IMG/VR virus record: IMGVR_UViG_3300028654_000072 | Location: 1-21,622 of that record | Source: a virus | Strand: one strand, 5' to 3' | Length of the DNA: 21,622 nucleotides | Shown here: positions 1 to 21,622 of the stretch, one piece after another | Layout: the number at the start of each line of letters is the position of its first letter | Position numbering within the stretch: position 1 is the first letter of the stretch | The notes under the pieces: model-generated | The model's input: only the letters and a program-made list of their open reading frames with translations | Database searches by the model: none | Told to the model about the DNA's origin: nothing | Program-made: the position numbers and the translations under genes

Positions 1-905
1 TAGTCCTGTCCCCCCGGATGTCCCCGATGTCCCGGTAGCTCCCTGAGTACCCGTCGCGCCCTGAAGGCCTGCACCGGTCGTACCTTGAATGCCAGTCGTG
101 CCTTGGATACCCGTAGGCCCCTGAAGCCCTGTGTTGCCCTGGATGCCAGTCGTGCCTTGAACACCGGTCGTTCCCTGAACACCCGTAGGCCCCTGAAGCC
201 CCGTGGCCCCAGCAACACCAGTATTACCTTGAACCCCAGTCGTGCCCTGAACGCCAGTGGCGCCCTTGACCCCTGTCACGCCTTGAAGACCTGTCTGGCC
301 ATCGACGCCCGTCGTTCCCTGCACACCGGTACGGCCCTGGACACCAGTTTGGCCTTGTAATCCTGTCTGGCCCTGGACACCAGTTTGGCCTTGCAGCCCG
401 GTGATACCTTGAACGCCTGTCTGACCTTGAACGCCAGTCGTGCCCTGGATGCCTGTCTGGCCCTGGGTACCCGTCGTGCCTTGCACGCCTGTATTACCCT
501 GAACGCCGGTAGAGCCCTGGATGCCCTGAACGCCTGTCTGACCCTGAACGCCTGTCGTGCCCTGGATACCCTGAACGCCAGTGTTGCCTTGGATACCCTG
601 AACGCCAGTCTGGCCCTGCTGACCCACACCGGTATTGCCTTGGATACACGTAGTACCCTGAACGCCGGTCGTGCCCTGAACACCGGTATTACCCTGCGTG
701 CCTGCACCAGTAGCACCCGCCACACCTGTCACACCTTGCGTGCCTTGCACACCAGTAGGCCCCTGAAGCCCTGTGGCCCCGGCAACACCTGTCCGGCCCT
801 GCGGCCCTGTGATACCCTGAACGCCCATTCCAGTGACGCCGGCAGGGCCTGTCTGACCCTGAATACCGGTCTGACCCTCGATGCCTGTGGCGCCTGCAAC
901 ACCTA
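1..905 (-). repeat. Collagen-like Gly-X-Y stalk, distal segment
   Basis: About 300 codons of Gly-X-Y triplets, mostly a six-residue unit of the form G-x-T-G-V/I-Q, so the DNA is a degenerate 18-bp tandem array. The register breaks twice: a Gly to Cys change at 646-648 (codon TGT) and a slip at the adjacent GVG-QQG stretch near 611-635. Trimeric stalks of this kind usually form extended rods. The array continues past the left edge. Confidence 0.85.
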
Positions 906-3900
906 TAGGTACAAAACGAACAGTCAGTTTGGGACGATTGCCGATATCCGTGTTTTTCGACGAATAAATGGCATAATCCTGATTGGTCGTGGCGTCTGAG
1001 ATAGCGATGAATCCATAGTTGGAGATCGTCCCGGACACCCAGCCCTGCACGACATTCACGCCCTCCGAGAACAGCTGAATAGTCTTGCTGCCAATAGATT
1101 GCGTGATCTGACCCATCACCGTCGAGTCGCGGTCACCGCCGGCAGTTGTCCAATTGTTCACGCCATCGTAAGTGTTCCATGTGGCCGCAGAGGCCGTCCA
1201 GTCGGTCGTGACCCGGTAGAGGGTCATCGTATCGGTACCGGTAGCCTGAGACTGCCAAACGCTCACAGAAGCATCATTTACCGTGATGGCCGGCGAAAGC
1301 GATGAGAGATCCCATTTGATGAGCGTACGCTTCGCAGCCGCCGGCGTGTCGAGAAAGTCCGCGGTATCAGTCGAATGATTGGTTGTGGGATTCAGAACCT
1401 CAATCCAGGTATCCTGCGCTGCCTGATTGCTGTAAATAGCAATGTAGCTGCCAGTTATGCCCTGCACACCCGTCGTGCCCTGCAGCCCTGTCTGACCCTG
1501 AATGCCCTGAATACCTGTCTGACCATCAACGCCAGTCAGGCCTTGAATGCCCTGCACCCCTGTGCGACCTTGTAGCCCTGTGGTACCCTGAGTGCCTTGA
1601 ACACCCGTCGTGCCCTGTACGCCTGTGGCGCCAATAGGGCCGCCAAGGGGGCCTGTCGTGCCCTGGATACCGGTAGATCCTCTAATGCCTGTCACGCCCT
1701 GGATGCCGGCACCGGTAGCGCCTTGAATGCCTGTGATGCCTTGACTACCCTGCAGTCCTGTCTGACCCTGAGGGCCTCGAGCAGCCCATTGAACTTGTAG
1801 CCTTGGGCGTAGAGACGCGGTAGCGTTATCGCCTGAGGCTGTTTCGTAGAAAATGTTGCTTCCACCGAAATATGGCGATGTCTGCGTGAACGTAAACCCG
1901 TAATTGGGGACAGTACCAGAGACCCACTTCTGAACAAGAGATCGAATGTCCCAAGTCCTGGTCGTGGCATCGCTCGACGTGTTATGAATTGTCGCGTAAA
2001 CAGTCGAATCGGTAAAATCGGCCGAAGAGAAATGCGATGATGCCCAGCCTGTGTTGGTCGGCGACGCGAACGACTTCGTCCAGGTAGCCTGGCTATGCGT
2101 GGCAGGATCTTCGGTAATGCCCTCATTCGTGGCATCCACACCCCAGTTCGTTGTCAACCGACGTATGTTCACGTCTTGGTTCTGTGAACCTGCAGCCTGC
2201 GTGACGGCATTTGTTGTCAGCACAGCAGAGATGATCGTCGAATCGAAAGGTATGAACGATAAATCATAAGCCATCAGCCCATAAGACAGCTGCCCTGAAG
2301 GGGGAAACGGCCCTGTTTCTCCAGAATCGCAGTAGCTTTCCATGGTGGACTCGCCACCATGCGCATCATTGCCTGATCCCGGTTCCCAGACATACGTGTC
2401 CTTGGATGTCCCGACTGCCCCGGCAATGCCCTTCCCGAATGCAACATTGTTCAAAGACAATCCGGTTTGACCCTGAAGCCCTGTCACACCCTGCACACCA
2501 GTCTGACCACCGCCCTGAATACCGGTTGTGCCTTGGATACCTGTAGGCCCCTGAAGACCTGTATCCCCCTGTGCAGTCGGGATGTAATTGAAACTGAGCT
2601 TAGGGACTATGCCGCTGCTGTCTTGGAAAGACTTGAACTGGAAACTGACAGTGCCAGTACCAGAGTCCTGACCGATCGCAACACCGTTCCAACCATGCTT
2701 CACCGCACTGCTTAACTGCTGGCATCCGTAGGCATTAAGAGGGAATGACCAGGTATGTCCTGTCTGATCCCCTGGGACAAACGTGGCGATTGCCGTGGTG
2801 TCGTAGTCACCTACGCCAAACCCACCGGGAGATGCCCATGCGTTTGTGCCATCATACTTATTCCATGTAGCACCTGTCTCAGTGAAGGGCTTTTTCAGCA
2901 AGTAGGCGCTGAACGTGGCATCGTTCGTGATGATATTGTATGGGGACGTGGGCCAGAGATTGATGCCTGAATGATCGGTAAAGGTCATCGTGGCATCGAG
3001 AACAAACGGGTAAACAGCCCCCACCGACGGCAGATCCCATTTGACCCATGTGTTTCTATTCTGAACACCCACGCTGTCGATTACCCAGAGCTCATCCAAA
3101 AGTCCGTAATTGGTGTTCGAAGCCGCGCCAATAACGCCGTAGGTATCTATGCCCGTGGTTGAATCAAAATGATTGGTCACGAACACGCCAGTAATGCCCT
3201 GCAGCCCTGTGTTGCCCTGAGCACCTTGAATTCCAGTCACACCTTGAGGCCCACCAAAAGGCCCTGTCACACCCTGCATTCCAGTCGTGCCAAGCCCAGT
3301 CTGGCCCTGAACACCGGTCTGACCCTCAATGCCCTGCACGCCAGTAGCACCCGCCACACCCGTCATGCCCTGCACGCCAGTCCCGCCCTGAACACCGGTA
3401 TTACCTTGAGGCCCTGTGAAGCCCTGGTTACCCTGCACGCCCTGAGGGCCCTGGATACCAGTCTGACCAATCGTGCCCTGCACACCAGTAGGCCCCTGAA
3501 GCCCTGTGGCCCCGGCAACGCCCGTTGAGCCTGCAACGCCTGTGTTGCCCTGGTTCCCCTGAATACCCTGCACACCGGTAGGCCCTTGAAGCCCTGTAGG
3601 GCCACCTGATGCCCCGGTCATGCCTTGGATACCAGTATCACCTTGAACGCCTGTGAGGCCCTGTACGCCTTGGACACCGGTAGACCCGTCAACACCAGTC
3701 TCACCGGCTACCCCGGTGTTTCCCTGCACGCCTGTAGCGCCCTGGATGCCCTGGACGCCTGTCTGGCCATCCACGCCTGTGGCACCCTGCACGCCTGTAG
3801 CGCCCTGGATGCCTTGGACGCCGGTTTCACCCTGAACGCCTGTGGCGCCAGAATAGACCGAATTCAGGCCTGTGATGCCTTGGAATCCTGTTGCCCCGGT

Positions 3901-4332
3901 GAAATCGATCTGATTTTTGATGTGAACGATCAGTTTGGGCGCGGCCTGAGTATCAGATGCCAAATCCGAGGCATTTACCGCGAATTCGACCGAATAGTAC
4001 TGGTCATGAGCCAACCACGGGATATCCGTGGGGTCAAAGCGCCAATTGATGACGAATGTCCCAGTCGACTGCTGGAAATACGTGAAATAGAGGATATGCG
4101 GGTAGAGATTGTAGAGCTCAGGCTGCAGCCGTGTCCACCGGTCATCCGCGGTCGTGGGCGACCCAAGCATGTACGATGCAGCACGCAGGTTCGAAATGCC
4201 TGCCAAGGGAAGATCGACTTCGATCGATCCCCAGGCCATGCTGTCCTGAGAAATGTCTATGATCGGCAGCTTGGCGCCATCAGGCCACACCTGACCGAAC
4301 AACGTGAAATGAACTGGATTTATTTCTGACAT
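1..4332 (-). CDS. Giant collagen-like tail fibre with three DNRLRE-type modules (3' end missing)
   Basis: The frame opens at ATG 4332 (GAGG Shine-Dalgarno 9 nt upstream) and runs off the left edge with no stop, so at least 1,444 residues exist and the C-terminus is not seen. The first ~143 residues form a non-repetitive domain, probably the particle attachment end. Then come Gly-X-Y stalks (about 3901-3184, 2569-2460, 1780-1459 and 905-1) rich in GxTGVQ and GIQ triplets. Between them are three globular blocks (about 3183-2570, 2459-1794, 1458-906), each with a TW-N/T-YDG or ATWTK-like core, a W-V/D-L segment and a closing 'RPKLTVRF'-like strand. These resemble DNRLRE/disaggregatase-related domains, which are carbohydrate-associated. 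As the last gene of the tail cluster it is inferred to be a receptor-binding or side fibre. The stalks are Thr/Gln-rich rather than Pro-rich, as usual for phage collagens. A surface protein of another kind is less likely because of the position. Confidence 0.85.
3184..3901 (-). repeat. Collagen-like Gly-X-Y stalk, proximal segment
   Basis: About 240 codons of Gly-X-Y triplets between the N-terminal domain and the first DNRLRE-like block. Degenerate 9- and 18-bp units code for combinations of GVQ, GAT, GNT, GIQ and GLQ. Two shorter stalks of the same type (about 2460-2569 and 1459-1780) separate the later globular blocks. Confidence 0.82.
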
Positions 4333-4359
4333 AATCTCTATCCTCGTATTAGCAAAGTA

Positions 4360-4551
4360 TTACCTGCGTTTGCGAGTCTCTGCGGCCTGGGCCTCTTGCA
4401 CAGCGATGTCGATCAGAACTGCTTGCTGTTCGGGGACGGTCTTCCAATCATACTCGGCGATCATGTCGATCACTGCATCCCCGACCCGCTGCCCGTTTTC
4501 CAACCGCATCCGGATCATATTGCGAAATTCTGCTTCTCTTTTCTCTGTCAT
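4360..4551 (-). CDS. Small protein of unknown function (63 aa)
   Basis: It starts with MTEKREAEFRN and ends in a basic AETRKRR tail. The middle is amphipathic and helical in character, with acidic and aliphatic residues (VGDAVIDMIAEYDWK). I see no signal peptide, membrane segment or catalytic motif. The start is preceded by AAGAGATGA-type purine-rich sequence. It lies between the 235-aa fibre-like gene and the collagen fibre, 27 bp from the latter and on the same strand, so it is co-transcribed with them. Small helical proteins at this place in tail clusters are sometimes fibre assembly factors, but that is only a positional guess. I do not recognise the family. Confidence 0.6.
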   Translation of the reverse strand: MTEKREAEFRNMIRMRLENGQRVGDAVIDMIAEYDWKTVPEQQAVLIDIAVQEAQAAETRKRR

Positions 4552-4566
4552 CTCTTTCCCCCTGTC

Positions 4567-5274
4567 TTAAGGGCACAGGCCGTACGCCTGAAGCAATGCC
4601 ACGATGTCAGCGAACGTCGCCGCCGGCGTAGGCTGCTGTGCCACCGGTGTCGCCCCGAAAAAGCCTACCAAAGGCTGTGACCCGTCCGTAGCGAATGTCA
4701 CGGCGGCCTGAGCGCTATATTGCGGCATAATCGAAATGCCATTTGACGTGAACGATATCTGTTGCAGGCGGCTGTCCTGAATGTAGATGTCACCCGAGCC
4801 ACCATTGTTACCATCCGTGAAAAGGGCCAAAAACCCTGAATCTGCCACGATTTCCATGCCACCAGCGGCGAACACCATCATGCTGTCCGCTACAGGCGAG
4901 GCTGACGTGGACACGGTCGAGAAGTTACCAATGCCGGTCACCAGCGTGTCCCCCACGAACCCGGTGTCGACAATCTGCGTCCTGGCAGTCTGTGCCCCGT
5001 CGGCCGTCTGAATTGTAGGCGCCGGATCGGCCGGATTCAAGGCTGCAATGCCCACAACGCTGGCATTGATGGCCACGTTCGATGACCCACAGCTCACCGC
5101 GGTGATCGTGTTCGAAGAGTTGACCAATCCCGCATGGACATGCTGGGCGCCGACCAGGGTGTCAGTAAGGTTGGGCAGCTTGCCTATGATGTCCTTCAAG
5201 GCCTGTGTCTCTGTAGGACCCCAATTGGCATCGCCAGTGTCGTTTAGAGTGTAACCGTTATAGTTCTCAGACAT
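4567..5274 (-). CDS. Tail fibre-like/virion protein with GFFGATP C-terminal motif
   Basis: This 235-residue protein has a short acidic N-terminal helix (ALKDIIGKLPN) followed by a long Ser/Thr/Gly/Ala-rich beta-type stretch without charged catalytic clusters. Its end reads LVGFFGATPVAQQ, then a helix closing in LLQAYGLCP. That 'GFFGATP-x-x-Q' ending recurs at the C-terminus of many phage fibre and appendage proteins and is probably a trimer-tip element. The AAGGGA Shine-Dalgarno lies seven bases upstream of the ATG. It follows the baseplate J-like gene by 10 bp. In Mu this position holds gp48 (DUF2313), but I see no resemblance to it here. Function is inferred from position and composition: a baseplate-proximal fibre or spike. 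Confidence 0.65.
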   Translation of the reverse strand: MSENYNGYTLNDTGDANWGPTETQALKDIIGKLPNLTDTLVGAQHVHAGLVNSSNTITAVSCGSSNVAINASVVGIAALNPADPAPTIQTADGAQTARTQIVDTGFVGDTLVTGIGNFSTVSTSASPVADSMMVFAAGGMEIVADSGFLALFTDGNNGGSGDIYIQDSRLQQISFTSNGISIMPQYSAQAAVTFATDGSQPLVGFFGATPVAQQPTPAATFADIVALLQAYGLCP

Positions 5275-12553: not shown

Positions 12554-14032
12554 TTATCCGAGAATAAGGTCGACAACGCCCGCAATGACATGCAATCCCT
12601 GGACGACATTCGCAGGCACCTTGACATCGATCTGCCCTTGGGTCTGCGTGTCGATCTCAGCGATCACACCCGCCTTGTATTGAGCAACGTTCTGAACGAT
12701 CTCAAGCTGCTCAAGAAGGTAGAGCACGTCCAGAACCTGTGAGACCACACGCGCCGGCGTCTTGGTCGAGAGCTTCGCCCGAATGAAACGCAATGCCAGA
12801 CGTGTCCGGATCTGGGCACGCACGTAGTCAAGTGTTCTGACTGTCGTGATGTCCAGCAAGGTCGGATCAGGGATCGAGGCTGTGGTTGTGTAGGTGCTGA
12901 TCGCACGTACGATCGTGACTTCATTGCCCGGGACGACCTCAAGCGGCGTCACGCCATTGTTCAGAGCATCTTCACTCTGCGTCCTGGTCATACGATCCAC
13001 CACTGAAGGCGGCGCAATCGTTGCCAAAGCAAGGCCATCGAAGGGCACAACAGGATCGCTGTTGTATGAAAGCATCGCTGCATATTCTGCACCAACCTTC
13101 CAGGGCTCGGACTTGGCCTGGTTGTTACCACCGTTGGCGTATGTGATCCATGCAATCGATCCGCGCCCATCATTCATGGTCGTGCCGGCCAGAGTCTTGA
13201 TGTTCGAGTAGGTGTCGACCTCTTCGGTCGCACCGGCTGCCCAAACCGCAGGACGCTGCTCCATTGCACCTGACGCAAAGGCCACCATGGACTTGATCTT
13301 GCCCAGGTTGCTTGCATCCGGTAGAGTCGAGCAGAAAATCGTGTATCCGCCTGCAACCACGGCCGCCAAGACTGTTCCCGCGGATGAGTAGACACCCACG
13401 TCAGGATCGGAGGCGCCACCAGTCAGCTGGGTCAGGGTCACGCCTGTACCGGTCACGGTATTCAGGGCATAGGACAGAGTCGACTGGTTGCCCAGTGTAC
13501 CCTTGTGCCGAGCCGTCAGGTTGATCGCATTGGACACAACCGCGTATGTGACAGGGAGAAGGTTGGATACCGCTGAAAGGGCTGTACCGAGGTTTGTGGC
13601 CACGGTCGTGTTGGCATCGCCGACAGATACGCCGACAGATACGCCGACATCGCCGATCCAGATCTGCAGGGATCCAGCCGCAGTGGCCGTGCCAGTGATG
13701 GCAAAGCTACCGGCAGCCTGGGTGCCCCCACCTGCATCGTCAATGGCGCATACGGTAAGGCTGATGTTGGGATTGGATTCGAACATGGCCTTGGTGGCCA
13801 GATGGGCTACAGAGCCGGTACCGAAGTACAAGGCACTGTCGGCATCACTGAAGACCACGGTAGGTGTTTTGGAGGCCACGCTGCCAGTGCTCAACTTCTG
13901 AGCAAGCAGGCAGATCTTGTCCTGTGGGGCGGTGAGGCCCTGTAGGGCATTGTTAGTGTTCTCTTCGAAATAGACACCCGGTTTACGGATGTTGGAAGGG
14001 ATGCTGAAAAAACTGATATTCGGGGAACTCAT
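12554..14032 (-). CDS. Contractile tail sheath protein (Mu gpL family)
   Basis: At 492 residues it matches Mu gpL. The N-terminus has the hallmark RKPGVYFEENTNNAL, the strand that reaches the neighbouring subunit, followed by ICLLAQKLSTGS. The C-terminus has the YVRAQIRTRLALRFIRAKL helix and VVSQVLDVLYLLEQLEIVQN, ending in an I-L-G strand that completes the handshake network. A Ser/Thr/Gly-rich region (about residues 95-210) is likely the surface domain. It holds a small tandem duplication coding for V-S-V-G twice (13621-13644). The sheath contracts to drive the tube into the host. Its ATG overlaps the stop of the HNH gene (ATGA), so sheath translation may be coupled to an inserted gene. Confidence 0.92.
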   Translation of the reverse strand: MSSPNISFFSIPSNIRKPGVYFEENTNNALQGLTAPQDKICLLAQKLSTGSVASKTPTVVFSDADSALYFGTGSVAHLATKAMFESNPNISLTVCAIDDAGGGTQAAGSFAITGTATAAGSLQIWIGDVGVSVGVSVGDANTTVATNLGTALSAVSNLLPVTYAVVSNAINLTARHKGTLGNQSTLSYALNTVTGTGVTLTQLTGGASDPDVGVYSSAGTVLAAVVAGGYTIFCSTLPDASNLGKIKSMVAFASGAMEQRPAVWAAGATEEVDTYSNIKTLAGTTMNDGRGSIAWITYANGGNNQAKSEPWKVGAEYAAMLSYNSDPVVPFDGLALATIAPPSVVDRMTRTQSEDALNNGVTPLEVVPGNEVTIVRAISTYTTTASIPDPTLLDITTVRTLDYVRAQIRTRLALRFIRAKLSTKTPARVVSQVLDVLYLLEQLEIVQNVAQYKAGVIAEIDTQTQGQIDVKVPANVVQGLHVIAGVVDLILG

Positions 14033-14502
14033 GTCTTTACTCCTTTACGCAGATTTTCTTCAGTCGCGAGAAGCTGAAGATTGGTGTAGTGAAAACACAG
14101 TCTTCTGTGATATGAGCATTGCAAATTGAACTTGCATGCGGCAGTGATGTGATCAACCTGATACTCATCATTTTCATACTTCTCCCACGTGAATCCCTGT
14201 GGAGCTCTCTGTTCTAAGTATTGTTTCAATTGTTCTATCGAGAGCCCTATGATCCCAAGACTGTCAGAACTAAACCGTCTCACTACTCCCGTCAGTGCAC
14301 GTCGAATTTTGTGCCTGTGATTGTTTATTATCTGAATCTGAGGATTTTGCCGCCTTATCCTACAGTTTTCACGCCTTTTTTCAGTCTTCGAATACACCCT
14401 ATCATATTCGCGCCGCCATTCGAGGTATTTTTCACGATTCTTGGACTTGTACCTCTTGTGCGACTCATAATAATCCGAACTGTATCCTTTGTACATGTGC
14501 AC
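14029..14502 (-). CDS. Free-standing HNH (endonuclease VII-like) homing-type endonuclease
   Basis: The frame opens at GTG 14502, but ATG 14496 is the better start because AGAGG lies five bases before it; that gives 155 residues, numbered from the ATG below. A basic Tyr-rich N-terminal region (about residues 1-65: YESHKRYKSKNREKY and similar) probably binds DNA. The catalytic part has Y-Q-V-D-H-I (residues 112-117), then a histidine-rich CSYHRRLCFHYTNLQLL block (the second N-containing element) and EENLRKG. This D-H ... N ... N order is the HNH fold of recombination endonuclease VII-like enzymes. Such genes behave as selfish elements and often insert between structural genes. It sits between the gp38-position ORF and the sheath, sharing ATGA with the sheath start. 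A virion role is unlikely. Confidence 0.85.
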   Translation of the reverse strand: MHMYKGYSSDYYESHKRYKSKNREKYLEWRREYDRVYSKTEKRRENCRIRRQNPQIQIINNHRHKIRRALTGVVRRFSSDSLGIIGLSIEQLKQYLEQRAPQGFTWEKYENDEYQVDHITAACKFNLQCSYHRRLCFHYTNLQLLATEENLRKGVKT

Positions 14503-19458: not shown

Positions 19459-19860
19459 TTGACAGAAATCGAGCGGTTTATGGGCAAAAAACATCTAAAA
19501 GCGAAATTCTTGGAAGGTTTCAAAAATTCACGTGGGGCCATCAGTTCGACGTGTATTGCCATGGGAATGGATCGCACGACCTACTACATATGGCTAAAAA
19601 ATGACGCGGACTTCGCCGCGGCCGTAGACGCGCTGAAGCAGAGTTTCGTCGAATTCGTTGAACAGAAGGTCTGGCAAAAGATCGAATCTGGCTCAGATTA
19701 CTGGGTCAAAGAATGGCTGCGCACACACTCCCCGGACTGGGTTCCCAAAGAACAGAACGAACTGTCAGGCAAGGTCGAGCTCGTCCTGAATCGCCATATC
19801 ATGGGTGATCAGACCCCGACCACGCCCTTGGAAACAAAACCAGAAGCTAAGGCCGCGTAA
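19459..19860 (+). CDS. Probable terminase small subunit / DNA-binding protein
   Basis: The frame can start at TTG 19459 (133 aa) or ATG 19480 (126 aa, MGKKHLKAKF). The ATG gives a more usual start; neither has a strong Shine-Dalgarno (GAAAG lies before the TTG). It contains a helix-turn-helix-like segment (SRGAISSTCIAMGMDRTTYY, then IWLKNDADFAAAV) followed by a helical oligomerisation region (VEFVEQKVWQKIESGS) and WVKEWLRTHSPDWVPK. It ends in a flexible Thr/Pro/Lys tail. Position directly before terL (TAAATG junction) and the HTH suggest the DNA-recognition subunit of the packaging motor. A transcriptional regulator is the alternative. Confidence 0.72.
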   Translation: MTEIERFMGKKHLKAKFLEGFKNSRGAISSTCIAMGMDRTTYYIWLKNDADFAAAVDALKQSFVEFVEQKVWQKIESGSDYWVKEWLRTHSPDWVPKEQNELSGKVELVLNRHIMGDQTPTTPLETKPEAKAA

Positions 19861-21622
19861 ATGGACGAGTTAGCCACAGTTGACGGTAAACCGTTGGATC
19901 TCGTCTGCAATGCCATGCAGGACAAGATCTTCTGGGGCTCGACGGCCAAATACATTACCGCGTCCTGTGGTCGGCGTGCTGGGAAAACTCAAGGCGCTGC
20001 CCAATTCTTGATTGATACCCTCTTCTCGGTACACGATAAAAAGGTCATGTGGATTGATGTTCAATATCGATCCGTTGTTGGCTACGTTGAGACCTATTTC
20101 TTGCCAATAATGAATAAAATCAGCAAGAAACTGTGGTCTTGGAAGCCTTCCAGGCGTGAATTACGCATCTTGGACAACGTAATTGAGTTCAGATCGTCTG
20201 ATAGACCTGACATGCTCGTAGGTCTGGGCTACTGGATGGTTGTCCTCAATGAGGCTGGTATAAGCCTCTTCAAGCAGCCGAATCTTTGGTTTCAATATGT
20301 GGCGCCTATGCTACTTGACCATGAGGACTCCAGGGCGTTCTTGATCGGTACGCCACGTGGCATGCTGGCAAGGGACGGGAAAGAGTCAATATTCTACAGT
20401 TTCTTTAAAAAAGGGCAGGTGGGGGGCTCTGAGTACGATCCTCACTATGCTTCGTTCAAATTCAGTACCTACGACAACAAAAAGCCGAATGGCTTTCTCG
20501 TTGAGGACGATATTCGCAAGCTCGAAGAAGAGACGCCGGCACGTATTCGGCTGCAAGAATTGCATGGTGAGTTCGTTTCTGGCTCAGATTCATCGATATT
20601 TCTGCCTGAATGGTGGCAGTACTGTGAAGATGTGCCTGGCCCTGAGTTCTGGGAACGAACGTTCATTTCGATCGATTCAGCATTCTCTGAGAAGACTTCA
20701 GCAGATGAAAGTGCTGCCACGGTATGGATCAAGGCCTGGGACGGCAGGTTCTTTTGCATTGATTGCTGGCATGATCGTGTGACCTATCCCGACCTGCTTG
20801 AGGCGACGAAGAAGTTGATCCTACGATACCAGCCCCACACGGTTTTGATTGAAAATAAGGCCTCTGGACAATCTTTGATTCAATCACTGCGGCGTGACCT
20901 GCCTGACCTTCATATCGCCAAGTTCCCTGGGGAAGGCGTGAAAATGATGGACAAGGTCAATCGTGCGGCCGCCATTTCATCTCATATCGAGATGGGCAAG
21001 GTGTTTTTGAAGCGAGCGCCTTGGAATGCTGATCTCGTCAACCAATGTACGTTGTTCCCGGACGGTGACCATGACGATATATGCTTTGTGAGCGGCACAA
21101 TGATTGCCACGCCCTTTGGAGATCGACCGATAGAGACTCTCAGGATGGGGGACATGGTGATCACCCCACTTGGGCTGCGAATGATTACCAACTTGTGCGT
21201 TAACGATGCCGACAAAGTAATCACCAAACTTGGACTGACCTGTACCCCTAACCACCCCGTTTTTTCTCATGATGGGTTTGAGAGAATAGATACCATTTCT
21301 CAGCCTATCTTAAGTATATTAACGGCATGGAAAACTATACAGTGGTCTCTGTTGACAGCATTGAGTTCGAGGGCAGGCTTTACCGCAGGCTTGGTGGGAA
21401 AAGAGCTTATTACTACCATAGCACGTACCATCCCGCATCAGAGTCTGGGCGAGGCAAGTCTCACCGAACTATGGAAGCTCTTCATAAGGTCATCTGGAAG
21501 AGATACCACCCTGGTGAAGAGATACCTTCAGGCTGGCATGTTCATCATGTCGACAATAACCAAGACAATAATGAGCCTGACAATCTACGCCTGCTACCGT
21601 CTAAGCAGCATCACGGCCTCAG
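19861..21622 (+). CDS. terL: Terminase large subunit interrupted by an intein (3' end missing)
   Basis: The ATG follows the upstream stop directly, with AAGG eight bases before it. The frame stays open to the right edge (587 codons). Extein residues 1-407 hold the ATPase: GRRAGKT Walker A (37-43, Lys 42), a MVVLNEAG Walker B-type strand with Asn 130-Glu 131, and a GTPRG motif III. They also hold the RNase H-like nuclease: D272 in SIDSAF, E331 in LIENKASG, and the HDD at 404-406. Terminase cuts and pumps DNA into the prohead through the portal. Right after HDDI, an intein starts at Cys 408. The C-terminal extein lies beyond the window. The Asn in place of the usual Walker B Asp is notable. No portal gene is in the window; one would be expected downstream. 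Confidence 0.9.
   Translation, partial: MDELATVDGKPLDLVCNAMQDKIFWGSTAKYITASCGRRAGKTQGAAQFLIDTLFSVHDKKVMWIDVQYRSVVGYVETYFLPIMNKISKKLWSWKPSRRELRILDNVIEFRSSDRPDMLVGLGYWMVVLNEAGISLFKQPNLWFQYVAPMLLDHEDSRAFLIGTPRGMLARDGKESIFYSFFKKGQVGGSEYDPHYASFKFSTYDNKKPNGFLVEDDIRKLEEETPARIRLQELHGEFVSGSDSSIFLPEWWQYCEDVPGPEFWERTFISIDSAFSEKTSADESAATVWIKAWDGRFFCIDCWHDRVTYPDLLEATKKLILRYQPHTVLIENKASGQSLIQSLRRDLPDLHIAKFPGEGVKMMDKVNRAAAISSHIEMGKVFLKRAPWNADLVNQCTLFPDGDHDDICFVSGTMIATPFGDRPIETLRMGDMVITPLGLRMITNLCVNDADKVITKLGLTCTPNHPVFSHDGFERIDTISQPILSILTAWKTIQWSLLTALSSRAGFTAGLVGKELITTIARTIPHQSLGEASLTELWKLFIRSSGRDTTLVKRYLQAGMFIMSTITKTIMSLTIYACYRLSSITAS
21082..21622 (+). mobile_element. Intein in terL (Hint domain, C-terminal splicing part missing)
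   Basis: The insert begins C-F-V-S-G-T-M-I-A-T, then PFGDRPIETLRMGDMVITP: intein block A with the nucleophilic Cys 1. Block B is LTCTPNHPVFSHDGFERI with the T-x-x-H motif. It is expected to excise itself and join the exteins at the conserved HDDI site of TerL. Blocks F and G (HN then the +1 residue) are not seen because the window ends. In the intein frame the part after ~21282 does not resemble a known domain and overlaps an HNH ORF in the -1 frame. Without the C-terminal blocks it cannot be said whether it splices. Confidence 0.85.
21327..21622 (+). CDS. HNH homing endonuclease ORF nested in the intein in another frame (3' end missing)
   Basis: ATG 21327 opens a frame shifted -1 relative to terL; the frame is open from 21282 (a TGA at 21279 bounds it) to the edge. 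Residues 1-98 show an N-terminal segment VDSIEFEGRLYRRLGGKRAY, then a MEALHKVIWKRYH helix, GEEIPSGWHVHHVDNN (HVHHVDNN at 71-78) and DNLRLLPSKQHHG. This is the classical phage HNH pattern 'R-x-V-W ... G-x-x-V-H-H-x-D-x-N ... N-N ... N-L ... H'. No clear Shine-Dalgarno precedes the ATG. No slippery site was seen in 21282-21327, so a frameshift from the intein is not supported. It would be the mobility enzyme of the intein. Confidence 0.85.
   Translation, partial: MENYTVVSVDSIEFEGRLYRRLGGKRAYYYHSTYHPASESGRGKSHRTMEALHKVIWKRYHPGEEIPSGWHVHHVDNNQDNNEPDNLRLLPSKQHHGL

Follow-up and report, generated by a model that had tools for sequence, protein, structure and literature searches.

The terminase large subunit gene (terL) at the end of a 21,622-nt stretch of viral DNA (IMG/VR record IMGVR_UViG_3300028654_000072, positions 1 to 21,622; hereafter, the window) raises the question of how one DNA segment could serve both as part of an intein and as a gene for an HNH homing endonuclease. 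The terL frame enters an intein and stays open to the window edge, while a second open reading frame (ORF), shifted by -1 and encoding the HNH protein, lies over the region that would link the two halves of the intein splicing domain (Hint). The comparison of the window with its relatives led us to conclude, with a probability of about 0.85, that the locus carries a contiguous cis-splicing terL intein with a separate -1 HNH gene placed over its linker.

To describe the arrangement in the window, the terL frame was followed from its ATG at 19861, and it contained zero stops up to 21621, the window edge. The N-extein (19861-21081, plus strand, as are all features of this locus) matched Pfam Terminase_6C with an E-value of 3e-10, as well as NCBIfam TIGR01630 and several PHROG terL families, and it ended in the nuclease motif ...FPDGDHDDI. 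Because intein-free TerL reads ...FPNGAHDDMVDSMSQAL at this point, and because L002, the nearest complete relative, resumes after its intein with CDALSMGLNY, the intein interrupts the TerL nuclease motif. The N-terminal half of the intein (21082-21326) begins with the Cys1 codon at 21082-21084 and carries the block A/B signature CFVSGTMIATPFGDRPIETLRMGDMV...TPNHP, in which the block B residues TPNH are encoded at 21244-21255. This half was also recognized by Pfam Hint_2 (E 1e-7, above the family cut-off). The HNH gene (21327-21622), which is shifted by -1 with respect to terL, has its ATG at 21327 and no stop before the edge, and it matches Pfam HNH_3 (PF13392) with an E-value of 1.9e-12; its catalytic domain (HVHHVDNNQDNNEPDNLRLL) spans 21477-21614, corresponding to ORF residues 51-96. 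The catalytic His-His/Asn/His positions and the Cys columns of HNH_3 were invariant among 50 aligned relatives. In the terL frame, the DNA of the HNH gene (21328-21621) encodes a stop-free intein linker located at the position of endonuclease insertion, while the third frame contains 10 stops over the 98 codons, the first of them at about 21353. A promoter scan of positions 21000-21622 gave no match. Hence, the terL frame passing through intein blocks A and B, the HNH identity of the -1 frame, and the joint openness of these two frames next to a third that closes at once, all of which had been proposed in the initial annotation of this DNA, agree with the profile matches. On the other hand, the chance of such openness, which had been put there at about 1% by a uniform-codon estimate, was too strong a figure for the window alone. 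When the HNH protein was kept fixed and its own synonymous codons were shuffled, the intein frame remained open over the 98 codons with a P of 0.27, and with uniform synonymous codons the P was 0.06. This means that the openness of the intein frame in the window is only moderately beyond chance.

To extend the analysis past position 21622, two related contigs were used. The first, L001 (IMGVR_UViG_3300031344_000041), is identical to the window and extends it by 340 bp, over which both frames remain open, although neither blocks F/G nor the HNH stop is reached. With this extension the HNH gene covers 212 codons of open intein frame, for which the corresponding P values were 0.07 with shuffling of its own codons and 0.0005 with uniform codons. 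An exact 42-base probe from the L001 end, used to seek the C-terminal half, recovered only the same contig. The second, L002, is complete: a single terL frame of 775 amino acids (aa) holds the N-extein, an intein N-half with Cys1 and block B, and an intein end with the block F/G sequence VYNLEIDYAHCYYANKILVGN, followed by the C-extein CDALSMGLNY and the terL stop. A 232-aa HNH with its own start and stop overlaps this frame in -1, and the window HNH is 47% identical to it. Thus, a stop in the intein frame soon after the window without blocks F/G, which had been named at the outset as a refuting outcome, is absent from L001, and in L002 the frame reaches F/G. By analogy with L002, the C-half of the window's own intein would have the same form.

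To find out how common this layout is, viral contigs were scanned with five HNH queries, which gave at least 563 relatives, of which 80 were kept; the counts of loci given below refer to the matches listed. A second scan, with one genome per species, gave 23 relatives. The loci were assigned to classes using profile hidden Markov models (HMMs) for the intein N-half, the intein C-half, and the HNH. When tblastn was run with the L002 intein alone there were zero phage matches, and the L051 intein as a query matched five records over its full length. The HMM placement showed that the HNH lay wholly within one intein ORF in 67 loci and in 4 more from bacterial or archaeal assemblies, and the same layout was confirmed by eye in L100, L113, and L115. 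In total, there were at least 69 non-redundant complete terL inteins with an overlapping HNH, each of them a single ORF. This layout was present inside the annotated terL genes of Acinetobacter phage Highwayman, Tetrasphaera phage TJE1, and Rhodobacteraceae phage LS06-2018-MD07, and also in an unannotated fecal phage record (L018). Among 62 N-exteins, Terminase_3 was matched in 36 and Terminase_6N in 35. Three inteins (L041, L073, and L079) were about 40 residues longer, at 363-364 aa, because their HNH ORF is extended C-terminally ahead of block F. Several of the loci, either overlapping or split (L105-L109 and L117), came from assemblies binned as Bacteroides, Parabacteroides, Acidobacteria, Patescibacteria, and the archaeon Methanimicrococcus, which are presumably prophage or phage contigs.

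The HNH was in the -1 phase relative to the intein in every HMM-placed case; neither an in-frame HNH nor one in the third frame was seen. Since the search started from out-of-frame HNHs, the lack of in-frame cases applies to this HNH family rather than to all inteins. The constancy of the phase bears on the simplest alternative, in which a sequencing or assembly indel, or the decay of an intein, moved an in-frame HNH to -1. The window alone is compatible with such an event, given that the chance of openness is 0.06-0.27, and an indel between 21240 and 21330 had been named at the outset as what would overturn the overlap. However, the -1 relation is shared by 69 non-redundant loci that come from different phages and from different projects, and an in-frame HNH is seen in none of them, which excludes an assembly indel for the family. 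Additionally, the HNH and splice residues are conserved and both frames are stop-free, which argues against either decay or indel, so that this explanation is very improbable.

To determine if the intein frame is open by more than chance, the stops were counted in an automatically scored set of 66 non-redundant cases with about 210 codons of overlap each. The intein frame contained zero stops across the overlap in 66 of 66 cases, a result that by itself is no test, because the class is defined by the open intein frame; the actual test is provided by the shuffles and the free-standing HNH genes. When the synonymous codons of each gene were shuffled, 2.24 stops were expected and only 7.75 of the 66 cases were predicted to be open. 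In the free-standing relatives, the corresponding frame contained on average 4.9 stops, and it was open in none of 11. The remaining frame had about 17 stops on average in all classes. These data showed that the openness of the intein frame is far beyond chance, and suggest that selection has removed stops from it. They also account for the constant phase, because with about 17 stops in the third frame behind this HNH only the -1 arrangement can stay open.

The next question is how the HNH protein would be made. The initial annotation had suggested that it is produced independently of terL, and the predicted translation signals fit this suggestion. The HNH genes start with ATG in 67 cases, GTG in 7, and TTG in 2. 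A Shine-Dalgarno match of at least 4 was present upstream of 67% of the HNH starts compared to 21-29% of control positions, and a match of at least 5 upstream of 40% compared to 5-8%. A different possibility is that -1 ribosomal frameshifting leads to an intein-HNH fusion instead of a separate enzyme, which could be considered because the HNH is always in -1, where the most common type of programmed shift would lead. However, slippery heptamers of the X XXY YYZ type were found within the usable stretch in only 5 of 70 loci, and the HNH frame opens only 0-15 nt ahead of its start in about half of the loci (0-3 nt in nine of them), which leaves scant room for a shift. Start codons with Shine-Dalgarno-like sites lie where the HNH frame opens, and the constant phase is already accounted for by the approximately 17 stops per HNH in the other frame. 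These sequence signals favor internal initiation, and make frameshifting quite unlikely.

To learn if the overlapping inteins could be competent for splicing, their conserved residues were examined. Among the relatives, Cys1 was present in 66 of 66 and the TxxH motif in 64 of 66, while a terminal Asn followed by Cys or Ser was found in 66 of 66, in the same ORF as the N-half. Pfam Intein_splicing was also matched in the relatives. Counted along the intein, the HNH extends from residue 72-94 to a stop located 11-30 residues short of the splice junction, a position that agrees with the usual site of endonuclease insertion in inteins (PMC6801210). The presence of these residues is also important when considering a self-splicing RNA intron with an HNH gene, in which the open intein frame would be incidental. 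HNH genes are often found in group I introns of phages (PMC11855218), but no Rfam family was found at gathering score in L001, L002, L015, or L038, the flanks are Hint domains with splicing residues, and an intron would have no need of a stop-free linker. We therefore regard an intron as extremely unlikely.

Not all members of the family are contiguous. About a dozen relatives contain split inteins, in which a related HNH lies between the ORF for the N-half and the ORF for the C-half of terL. The split terL inteins at the same site (L072, L074, L084, L085, L089, L096, L107, L108, L110, L112, L114, L020, and L021) include those of Vibrio phage 1.238 and Brochothrix phage BL3, and their C-half ORF often overlaps the 3' end of the HNH; they are a natural comparison for the contiguous form. 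The window could itself belong to this group as a fractured gene, with an N-half that ends soon past position 21622, the HNH in between, a separate C-half ORF, and splicing in trans, since its own C-half is unseen and relatives such as L072, L084, L096, and L108 are built in this way. On the other side, the window intein frame is open for at least 212 codons beyond the HNH start, the terL frame of the sister L002 is unbroken up to its end, and L001 and L002 group together with full support outside the clade with most of the split cases in a tree whose deep branches are weak. Hence, a split intein in the window is unlikely, and a contiguous one is preferred.

The related HNH genes also include free-standing ones, at 11 non-redundant loci, several of which are beside terS, terL, or portal genes, and these neighbors are consistent with terL as the homing target of the HNH. 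Such genes near terS, terL, or portal were seen in Acinetobacter phage BP10, Pseudomonas phage FBPa53, and Sphaerotilus phage SN1 (L017, L022, and L024). In the HNH tree, in which the deep branches are weak, the overlapping state is strongly clustered, yet at least several changes are needed to explain its distribution. The free-standing genes are scattered among the overlapping ones and most of the split cases fall in one clade. This pattern is compatible with free-standing and intein-resident HNHs having been exchanged repeatedly.

To better understand what the intein frame encodes over the overlap, the substitution patterns and predicted structures were compared. In pairs of more than 70% identity, the substitutions within the overlap were concentrated at HNH third positions (0.53-0.64), as in the free-standing HNHs, while in the non-overlapping N-half the same pairs had, as usual, more substitutions at the third positions of the intein frame. 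Because the HNH third position is the second codon position of the intein frame, the linker is not conserved as a protein. The linker identity between L001 and L002 was 0.31 compared to 0.24 expected from the HNH alone, and this small excess could be explained by shared ancestry. In the AlphaFold model of the L002 intein frame both ends fold as Hint, with predicted local distance difference test (pLDDT) values of 85-97 and 89-94, whereas the linker is mostly below 55 and disordered. The HNH product of L001 was predicted as folded, with a mean pLDDT of 86. Foldseek matched the L002 intein model to the inteins 2lwy and 6qaz gp41-1, and the HNH model, weakly, to I-HmuI. The intein-frame linker thus looks passive rather than like a second selected protein. 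Hence, the proposal in the initial annotation that the same DNA is read both as linker and as HNH enzyme is borne out as an arrangement by L002 and the 69 loci, while the linker appears to be tolerated more than used, and for the window itself the C-half is unseen.

Several points weigh against the contiguous intein with a separate HNH gene. The sequence of the window and L001 stops before blocks F/G; the one Shine-Dalgarno match ahead of the window HNH is weak (TAAG) and distant from the ATG; the overlapping class owes its complete openness in part to its own definition; and the family also includes about a dozen split relatives, so that not every member is contiguous. Finally, that the intein splices and that the HNH is expressed, cuts, and supports homing is inferred. 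With these points taken into account, the following course of events is proposed. A contiguous cis-splicing intein would sit inside the nuclease active-site motif of TerL, with a -1 HNH gene where an in-frame endonuclease usually sits. A ribosome on terL would read through the HNH gene in the terL frame, so that about 200 unstructured residues would link the Hint halves; these halves would then fold, and the intein would excise itself. The HNH would be translated separately from an internal start at the end of the N-intein, as the start codons and Shine-Dalgarno signals suggest, and it would cut terL copies without the intein, which would then gain the element through repair. The -1 frame would be the only one available to hide the HNH, with selection clearing stops from the intein frame.

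Elements that share some of these features have been described before. Fractured genes, reportedly described by Dassa et al. in 2009 (cited in PMC3229294), consist of the two halves of a split intein and a free-standing endonuclease gene located between them. They are similar to the terL elements in that the endonuclease is a separate gene at the intein break point, but there the endonuclease gene interrupts the intein, while here one intein ORF is overlapped by the HNH. Canonical inteins are represented by that of the cyanophage CL131 dCTP deaminase, which consists of HintN with an in-frame HNH_3 and self-excises (PMC6293099). In both cases Hint halves flank an endonuclease at the usual insertion position; the canonical endonuclease is, however, in the intein frame and part of the excised protein, while the HNHs of the window and of all relatives embedded in an intein are separate genes in -1. 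The nearest description in the literature searched is ShiLan, an out-of-frame HNH in actinobacteriophage DNA methylases, where a second methylase insertion is alike (Arsenault, Gosselin, Gogarten 2025, PMC11855218). ShiLan resembles the terL elements in its out-of-frame, zinc-finger-flanked HNH, in the open frame of the host gene, and in that homing is inferred (PMC11855218). In contrast, ShiLan is without an intein splicing domain, so that the host methylase retains the extra segment, while the terL HNH is framed by the Hint domain. The TerL inteins of mycobacteriophages lie in functional motifs of the large terminase subunit and were surveyed as in-frame domains, and the passages searched of that survey contain no out-of-frame endonuclease in these inteins (PMC5050341). 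A 2025 preprint on non-canonical actinobacteriophage inteins, cited for overlapping frames in PMC11855218, may, as far as that citation tells, overlap with the present findings, which makes priority uncertain. Nevertheless, we lean to the view that the loci form a widespread and previously undescribed class of phage terL inteins, in which a separately translated HNH is overprinted in -1 on the linker, splicing and endonuclease are uncoupled, and gene prediction hides the enzyme.

Other features of the window were also noted. The ORF at 19459-19860 (plus strand), which abuts the terL start, would encode a terminase small subunit-like protein; the name terS is suggested by its position, and the HTH_Tnp_1_2 match of its product falls just under the Pfam cut-off. 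On the minus strand, positions 1-4332 encode a very long collagen-like protein with (GxTGVQG)n repeats and interspersed non-repeat domains, which is probably a tail fiber or structural protein, and its ORF is cut by the window start. Also on the minus strand, a 157-aa ORF between tail genes (14029-14502) is HNH-like by eye (EYQVDHITAACKF...HYTNLQLLATEENLRKG), and it had no Pfam match at an E-value of 0.01.

The overlapping layout would be a third and common way for an intein to keep its homing endonuclease, beside in-frame fusion and split genes. It is an evolutionarily replicated, long same-strand overlap, with a folded enzyme in one frame and a tolerated linker in the other, for which the free-standing and split relatives serve as natural controls. 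It also suggests a route by which a free-standing HNH could enter an intein, by landing at a permissive loop and losing stops in the frame most easily opened. There are consequences for annotation as well. In L002 (positions 2547-4871) the shadow linker is covered by alignments to phrog_30251, a terminase large subunit family of 799 positions, and to phrog_35162, a family of unknown function with 232 positions, and PHROG families, for example phrog_30251, appear to include translated shadow sequence. Hence, terL entries in databases would hold about 200 residues of such sequence, while the nucleases encoded over it have been overlooked.
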